This document shows, in pieces, positions 12,501 through 13,177 of a stretch of 64,000 bases of DNA. The position numbers and the translations under genes were made by a program. Location of the stretch: the NCBI RefSeq assembly GCF_014698305.1, contig NZ_JACJST010000026.1, positions 1 through 64,000 of the forward strand, given 5' to 3'. Source of the stretch: Anabaena lutea FACHB-196. Its GTDB lineage: Bacteria > Cyanobacteriota > Cyanobacteriia > Cyanobacteriales > Nostocaceae. The notes under the pieces were generated by a model, which saw only the letters and a list, made by a program, of their open reading frames with translations, was not told the DNA's origin and did not search any database. The number at the start of each line of letters is the position of its first letter. Within the stretch, counting starts at the first letter, position 1.

Positions 12501-12717
12501 CCCCAGCTTACAAATTGAAGAATATATAGTTTTAGATGTGTTAGTCGGTCACGCAGTGCGGTTAGCATGGCTAGAAAATCATCCCCATCGCAGTAATCAT
12601 TATGATGAAGATAAAGGTTTAGCATGGCCACATTTTTACAACACTTCTCCTCAAGATTGCGCTAATTATATTTTGAAGGCGTTTAGGTTCTTGATAGAGT
12701 TTGGTGAAGATGCTTAA
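9511..12717 (+). CDS. Glycoside hydrolase family 15 / phosphorylase-kinase-alpha-like protein
   Basis: The 1068-residue cytoplasmic protein has an N-terminal (alpha/alpha)6 glucoamylase-like domain (about 1-480) with [37 protein letters not shown] and [20 protein letters not shown]. These match GH15 and the regulatory alpha/beta subunits of eukaryotic phosphorylase kinase. The C-terminal half (about 500-1068) is a long mixed region with no catalytic motif I recognise. Cyanobacterial proteins of this length are usually annotated as GH15; whether they hydrolyse glucan or act as a regulator is open. The gene is monocistronic in appearance, and its stop codon abuts the inverted repeat of the next cassette. 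Confidence 0.82.
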   Translation: [1068 protein letters not shown]

Positions 12718-12757
12718 ACGCAGAGGAACACAGAGGTAAGCGCGGAGGAACGCAGAG
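12717..12757 (+). repeat. Left inverted repeat flanking the GxxExxY gene
   Basis: A 41-base tract built of CGCAGAGGAA/CGCGGAGG units. Its reverse complement recurs at 13137-13177 with 34 of 41 positions identical. It starts at the GH15 stop codon and ends two bases before the GxxExxY start codon. Confidence 0.85.
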
Positions 12758-12758
12758 A

Positions 12759-13136
12759 ATGCAAGAGAATGAGTTAAGTGGGTTGATTATTGGTTGTGCG
12801 ATGAGGGTACATACTGCGTTGGGACCTGGGTTGTTAGAGTCAGCCTATGAGGAATGTTTAGACTATGAACTCAAAAAAGCCAATCTCAATATTGGTAGAC
12901 AAATTCCTGTCCCCTTGATTTACGAAAATGTAAAATTAGATTGTGCTTATCGGTTAGATTTACTAGTCGAAAACAAAATCATAGTAGAAGTTAAAGCCTT
13001 GGAATCCTTAAACCCAATCCACTCCGTTCAACTTCTCACTTATCTCAAACTAGCCAAATGTAAACTCGGACTCCTCATCAACTTTAACGTCCTTCACCTC
13101 AAAGATGGCATCAAACGAGTAGCTAACAACCTCTAA
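12759..13136 (+). CDS. GxxExxY family protein (PD-(D/E)XK nuclease-like fold)
   Basis: The 125-residue protein has the name-giving motif G24-x-x-E27-x-x-Y30 in GPGLLESAYEECL and a PD-(D/E)XK-type active-site pattern: Asp67 in YRLDLLV and E77-V-K79 in IVEVKALESL. The closing segment KLGLLINFNV...KDGIKRVANN is also typical. The molecular function is unproven; the nuclease-like residues argue for nucleic-acid or nucleotide cleavage. The gene is exactly bracketed by 41-base inverted repeats. The left one overlaps the GH15 stop codon and the right one begins at the base after the TAA, so gene plus repeats look like one cassette. Confidence 0.9.
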   Translation: MQENELSGLIIGCAMRVHTALGPGLLESAYEECLDYELKKANLNIGRQIPVPLIYENVKLDCAYRLDLLVENKIIVEVKALESLNPIHSVQLLTYLKLAKCKLGLLINFNVLHLKDGIKRVANNL

Positions 13137-13177
13137 CTCCCCGTACCTCCGCGTTAACCTCCGCGTTCCTCTGCGTT
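13137..13177 (-). repeat. Right inverted repeat flanking the GxxExxY gene
   Basis: Reverse complement of the tract at 12717-12757, 34 of 41 positions identical, made of CTCCGCG/CCTCTGCGTT units. It begins directly after the stop codon of the GxxExxY gene and could also form the 3' hairpin arm of its transcript. Confidence 0.85.

Follow-up and report, generated by a model that had tools for sequence, protein, structure and literature searches.

The window, as we call the whole 64,000-nt stretch of Anabaena lutea DNA analysed here, carries a GxxExxY gene closely framed by inverted repeat arrays, and we read this cassette, with a probability of about 0.6, as the gene-bearing form of a two-part system comprising (i) a predicted nuclease, GxxExxY, and (ii) a cognate family of directional repeat arrays; the binding and cutting of the arrays by the protein and the route by which they are copied are what we infer from the observations below.

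The cassette comprises a left arm (12717-12757, plus strand) of two 22-bp repeats, equivalent to four CRCNRAG-type heptamers reading toward the gene; the GxxExxY gene itself (12759-13136, plus strand), encoding 125 residues; and a right arm (13137-13177, minus strand), an inverted copy of the left whose minus-strand heptamers also read toward the gene. All heptamers, four per arm, are CGCNGAG or near variants. The inverted match described in the earlier note was recovered at 34 of 41 positions and can be extended in a repeat search to 51 nt at 78% identity. Equally as that note had it, the arms adjoin the reading frame: the first base of the left arm is the last base of the upstream GH15-type gene (9511-12717), lying within its stop codon, and the right arm begins with the base directly 3' of the GxxExxY TAA. 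GGAGG at 12744-12748, inside the left arm, is by its sequence a plausible ribosome-binding site for the gene. A DUF1232 gene follows on the opposite strand (13186-13488), MotA/ExbB genes also lie nearby, and the closest named loci belong to Trichormus sp. NMC-1 and Anabaena catenula. A consensus scan of 12600-13300 gave one promoter-like match (1.5 expected) and no terminator-like match (0.5 expected), and no known RNA family reached its gathering score in seven loci. Elsewhere in the window, positions 4973-5242 hold two near-identical copies (98% match) of a 135-bp tandem unit.

Framing by inverted arms is a strong but not universal rule of the family. To score bracketing, the upstream flank was aligned locally with the reverse-complemented downstream flank, and a best score of 14 or more was taken as a pass. 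The 80 loci nearest to the window protein include 71 that pass; of the controls, 1 of 226 positions shifted outward and 6 of 378 other ORFs do so. The wider sample, drawn from relatives and from the 33 genomes to which the non-cyanobacterial loci belong (carriers of the family by construction), comprises 246 matching ORFs, 204 of them distinct and near full length and 200 with enough flank; here inverted arms are present around 170 of the 200 GxxExxY genes, in several phyla (cyanobacteria 82/88, others 88/112), and around 11 of 563 other ORFs of the same loci, with direct-orientation flanks passing in 39/200 genes and 16/563 controls. A chance inverted repeat is rejected on the 170/200 against 11/563 and the 71/80 against 1/226. 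With the threshold fixed beforehand, a fresh Bacteroidota set of 40 new loci, chosen non-randomly as high-scoring family matches with one per genome, yielded 41 genes in 39 loci, duplicates kept, of which 23 pass, compared with 79 of 1640 mismatched pairs; it is because of this lower rate that the rule cannot be called universal. The earlier note had made its cassette idea depend on unrelated genes being framed less often and on most GxxExxY genes having the tracts; the other ORFs of the wider sample are indeed seldom framed, and most GxxExxY genes of both samples are. The notion that the arms always flank the gene fails for 30 of the 200 and 18 of the 41. The own genome contains three GxxExxY genes, all bracketed, with 22-bp units in the window, an 8-bp rhythm in L010 and GGAT units in L011.

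The window product is a clear GxxExxY protein, as first proposed from the letters alone, scoring 150.3 bits against TIGR04256 (cut-off 35) in a match that covers the whole model and 147.6 bits against PF13366 (cut-off 22), its sole Pfam match at E 0.001. Its AlphaFold2 model has a mean pLDDT of 94.8, and the nearest Foldseek match is SSO0001 (4ic1; E 2.5e-4), which we take to be a Cas4, followed by lambda exonuclease, AdnAB and a Cas4 (E 1.5e-3 to 2.9e-3). A series H, D, ExK, QxxxY, presumably the RecB/Cas4 active-site signature, is present in one predicted fold, the residues marked in the window protein being H18, E27, D67, E77, K79, Q91 and Y95. The active site originally put forward (D67, E77, K79) is conserved but was incomplete, H18, Q91 and Y95 being conserved as well: D67, E/D77, K79 and Q91 occur jointly in 198 of 205 family sequences, H18 in 189 and Y95 in 195. 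Comparison of the window gene with nine orthologues gives dN/dS of 0.04-0.13, with dS saturated in some. GxxExxY, which is under purifying selection, is thus predicted to be a minimal nuclease of the RecB/Cas4 type whose active site is intact; the conserved active site and the low dN/dS together argue that the protein is in use, probably as an active nuclease. Carriage on mobile replicons is scarce, with matches at E 1e-5 in 8 of 72,556 plasmid records and in none of 50,697 phage records.

The arrays also occur singly, away from any cassette. A 17-nt core, with up to two mismatches allowed, has 103 matches in the 6.06-Mb own genome (G000) against 34 for the reversed-pattern control, and a three-heptamer pattern has 144, three-heptamer counts here and below referring to matches rather than arrays, with overlapping matches each counted. 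With only three GxxExxY genes present, the 144 matches speak against a CGCAGAGG tract confined to cassettes. Most arrays in the own genome are single directional elements comprising a T-run, a 22- or 44-bp array and a second T-run (30 of the 103 match loci viewed). Of 24 single arrays checked, one lies, by the rule applied, inside an ORF; among the other 23, 18 stand behind a co-oriented gene, 12 of these at most 30 nt from the stop. Of 12 single arrays of G000, 11 could be matched to orthologous places within the genus (L046 is not comparable). Most of these places hold an array, the count of 22-bp units varying in some, and four, L363, L366, L351 and L356, have none. When orthologous two-unit single arrays are compared, differences at the variable letters number 29 in 160 (18%) and those in the framework 18 in 680 (2.6%), as counted over nine arrays and 20 comparisons from which short or absent copies, one second copy and the divergent L368 were excluded; such uniformity is explicable either by conversion between copies or by selection on the framework.

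Array abundance goes together with the gene. Across 194 cyanobacterial genomes the three-heptamer pattern has 3568 matches, compared with 116 for the reversed pattern. Taking a match over 100 bits as gene presence, which gives 37 carriers with internal-stop copies included (G010 has only such a copy), at least 10 array matches are found in 33 of 37 carriers against 8 of 157 other genomes, and within the own order in 32 of 34 against 8 of 29, both as raw counts that ignore kinship. The eight gene-less genomes with at least 10 matches are G280, G191, G216, G165, G250, G130, G211 and G236; G280, counted as gene-less, has 116 array matches and a best gene match of only 22 bits. Carriers with few array matches are G224 (0), G143 (0), G184 (1) and G234 (8).

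The alternative that survives best, although we consider it unlikely, holds that the arrays serve the host as 3' or recombination sites, somewhat like Chi, at which GxxExxY acts as a host enzyme whose spread is incidental. Such a role would agree with the strong purifying selection (dN/dS 0.04-0.13), the RecB-like predicted fold, the conservation of the orthologous array framework (2.6% against 18% change) and the frequent position of single arrays just behind genes and in their direction, but it sits poorly with a gene that is patchy (over 100 bits in only 37 of 194 cyanobacterial genomes), with the several arm classes found within one genome and with array framing of the gene itself, for which a host enzyme would have no use.

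Comparison of sites among relatives discloses remnants, absences and replacements. At the window site, some relatives have the full cassette. In L087 the gene breaks off after about codon 29, L073 and L080 have short hairpins similar to the outermost parts of both arms, L082 (and perhaps also L086 and L094) retains scraps, and L084 and L096 show no visible cassette trace. Gene-less inverted doublets of the same design occur in Bacteroidota, for example L374 and L371, in stretches picked for two close inverted matches, and the window holds one at 5893-5974, of a second arm class (TCTGAATCAGGAT... / GGAT) that also frames the cassette L011 on contig C34 of the own genome. Within five genomes of the genus, the window site (A) is filled in four, site B in four, D in three and E in two; site C, a GGAT-class region, is too repetitive for assignment across the genus, and the flanks of L291 and L300 are unlike those of any other cassette. 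At site B, G000 and G003 share flanks that are 96.7% and 93.5% identical around genes that are 69.5% identical and arms that differ, and near-identical flanks enclosing different genes and arms indicate, at the level of sequence, that gene and arms were exchanged together. The cassette is absent from L311, L323, L324 and L325 where other strains have it, with the flanks altered too. Joint replacement at one site and absence at others uphold the earlier view of arms and gene as one unit; the search for empty sites that it had proposed did find relatives lacking the cassette, but among the relatives' sites compared no clean insertion into an intact site could be demonstrated, because the flanks of the cassette-less sites have changed as well.

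Target-site duplication was likewise not detected: over 133 cassettes the longest flank repeat averages 4.78 against 4.77 after shuffling, a value reached by 91 of 200 shuffles, with the proviso that the fuzzy arm ends could let duplications of 2-3 bp escape. Movement of arrays and cassettes is rare, since many single arrays and cassettes occupy the same places across the genus. The picture of a unit currently hopping is therefore not borne out, no duplication being seen and sites A, B and D being common to three or four of the five genomes.

The arms fall into classes and have a polarity. A simple classifier assigns the 170 passing cassettes to CRCNRAG (120), GGAT/GATT (15), CRCNGAT (7) and GAATT (5), with 23 unclassed. 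Of the 133 cassettes that score 18 or more, 98 have a left arm with two or more CRCNRAG units; the units are directed inward in 94 of these and outward in 4. For 112 unselected non-cyanobacterial cassettes, the left arm scores on average 17.4 against its own right arm and 8.2 against those of others (0 of 5000 permutations); within genomes the own right arm is the best match in 64 of 71 cassettes, a set pre-selected for matching arms, which raises the figure. The more alike two proteins are, the more alike their arms tend to be (Mantel rho 0.26 and 0.56; 0 of 500 permutations each), and a tree of 155 proteins, 132 of them classed, requires 13 arm-class changes against 22-26 with shuffled labels, or 12 against 15-19 for non-cyanobacteria alone; shared descent may contribute both to the protein-arm similarity and to the fit of classes to the tree.

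Several further features of arms and arrays were observed. ATTACGA-type tandem heptamer arrays lie in the window at 15894-15932, 16903-16936 and 29293-29332, and the akin CGAATT units make up the arms of the GxxExxY cassettes L263 and L288. Small extra repeats sit within the arms of L071, L116 and L122, and L297 has an identical insert at the same place in both arms, for which concerted change and independent insertion of a targeted small repeat into each arm are equally possible.

Outside the cyanobacteria, the co-occurrence of array and gene was followed in 148 Bacteroidota genomes. At least 10 matches are found in 28 of 73 gene carriers and in none of 75 genomes without the gene (raw counts, kinship ignored), and at least three in 44 of 73 against 4 of 75; the totals are 1301 matches in the carriers and 36 in the non-carriers, among which are scored two genomes with gene matches of E about 5e-4 and 9e-4. 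The reversed-pattern control gives 65 matches overall, with a single genome supplying 35. In 45 of the 73 carriers, the one array class that was counted has fewer than 10 matches.

These counts bear on a second alternative, less probable again, by which the arrays are intergenic repeats or insertion hot spots in their own right, between two of which a GxxExxY gene merely happens to survive. Single arrays are indeed frequent where the gene is not, 18 of the 23 follow a co-oriented gene and each window arm lies directly behind the stop of a convergent gene. Moreover, inspection of the eight best-scoring control ORFs found at least two, L128 6402-7247 and L215 11500-12348, framed by inverted CRCNRAG- or CRCNGAT-like arrays, the same classes as in the cassettes, and other genes can therefore be framed too, an argument against framing being exclusive to GxxExxY. 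Against this, only 11 of the 563 other ORFs of the same loci pass, gene-less Bacteroidota are nearly array-free and arm class tracks the protein phylogeny; a general intergenic repeat around any gene is rejected as the whole story by the 11 of 563.

Three loci met in this survey deserve separate mention. The control ORF L160 258-770 (minus strand) has the look of an IS200-type Y1 transposase by sequence and lies between long palindromes in a Bacteroidales genome that also carries GxxExxY, being in effect a positive control. The L215 genome (G105), which is also that of L172, Marinilabilia salmonicolor, has five GxxExxY matches in about 13 kb. At L249 1810-3216, a unit of about 660 bp is repeated in tandem; it comprises a GxxExxY cassette and a stretch that, judged by eye, resembles the 3' end of a type I restriction specificity gene.

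Across 29 orthologous cassettes the two arms show no fine co-variation: the own arm scores 21.7 against 21.0 for the arms of other strains (reached by 921 of 5000 permutations), a result that speaks for consensus recognition and against pairing. The least probable alternative, that the transcript folds end to end, its stem hiding the ribosome-binding site or protecting the mRNA and its arms being kept for pairing, draws on a predicted fold, with paired arms, that outscores each of 100 shuffles (z -3.82), on the GGAGG within the left arm and on the frequency of the inverted arrangement (170/200), but it is countered by the lack of compensatory change, by a polarity (94 inward, 4 outward) that pairing does not require and by the single arrays elsewhere and their co-occurrence with the gene, which it leaves unexplained, so that of the mRNA folding suggested in the earlier note the predicted fold stands and the co-variation expected of it does not.

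In the two-part system that we favour, the GxxExxY nuclease would recognise short directional arrays of its own class, array form and protein would diversify together, and one genome could host several such pairs. The nuclease would cut or resect DNA at its arrays, and host recombination would repair the break from another array copy; this copying would keep the array framework uniform while altering the number of units, and would occasionally place arrays or a whole cassette at a new intergenic position, in many cases directly behind a stop codon. The process would leave behind single arrays and gene-less doublets, and after loss of the gene the arrays would fade. A nuclease acting on its own arrays, combined with copying by host repair, would account for the bracketing, the polarity, the class matching, the co-occurrence, the framework uniformity, the changes in unit number and the remnants.

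The closest known layout is that of REP sequences and RAYTs, described in PMC3116915 as an intergenic family of dispersed short repeats comprising singlets and inverted doublets, with repeats beside the enzyme gene and repeat class matched to the enzyme. The likeness extends to REPINs: the GxxExxY gene is flanked by a repeat family dispersed in the genome, and gene-less inverted doublets of its arrays, putative hairpins by their layout, occur in the Bacteroidota stretches chosen for them and once in the window. The differences are that (i) GxxExxY is a predicted PD-(D/E)XK nuclease by its Pfam match and Foldseek neighbours, unlike RAYTs, which are Y1 (HUH) tyrosine transposases; (ii) its single arrays are tandem heptamers, unlike the palindromes of REP; and (iii) singlets dominate among the CRCNRAG arrays viewed in the own genome, unlike REPINs. 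Strong constraint combined with rare movement suggests a long-lived partnership between GxxExxY and its arrays rather than an aggressive parasite, and the REPIN authors argue likewise for RAYTs (PMC3116915).

Insertion sequences and MITEs also have a gene between inverted ends and short gene-less derivatives, whereas the cassettes show no recognised transposase and no detected target-site duplication, unlike elements with a DDE transposase. As to the protein, the predicted fold and the series H, D, ExK, QxxxY resemble those of Cas4, lambda exonuclease and RecB nuclease domains. Cas4 proteins have four conserved cysteines that hold an Fe-S cluster; the window protein, unlike them, has 125 residues, the four-cysteine set is absent, and only C33 is at least 90% conserved in a 41-row alignment. 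The neighbours (GH15, DUF1232, MotA/ExbB) include no CRISPR or phage recombination genes, unlike those of Cas4 and phage recombination systems. TIGR04256 and PF13366 (PDDEXK_3) define the protein only. Within the part of the open-licence literature covered by searches with gene, family and repeat terms, no description of an association between GxxExxY and repeats was found; a 2008 paper reportedly dealt with small dispersed repeats in Nostoc.

More broadly, and as a tentative proposal that we consider doubtful, cassettes of this kind may be minimal elements that spread across phyla without a transposase, a 125-residue RecB-type nuclease cutting its own heptamer arrays and host recombination copying the repeat or the cassette, and they may thereby have given rise to part of the anonymous CTCTGTG/CTTTGCG-type short repeats of bacteria. 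If the two-part reading is true, two things are expected, recognition by the protein of the arrays beside its own gene and a dependence of array turnover on that gene, and a widespread uncharacterised nuclease family would gain a testable function. The reading would also assign an owner to a class of short repeats scattered through Cyanobacteria, Bacteroidota and other phyla, and the system would represent a second, chemically unrelated solution to the REP/RAYT layout, in which one enzyme gene and a repeat family belong together although no ordinary transposon is involved.
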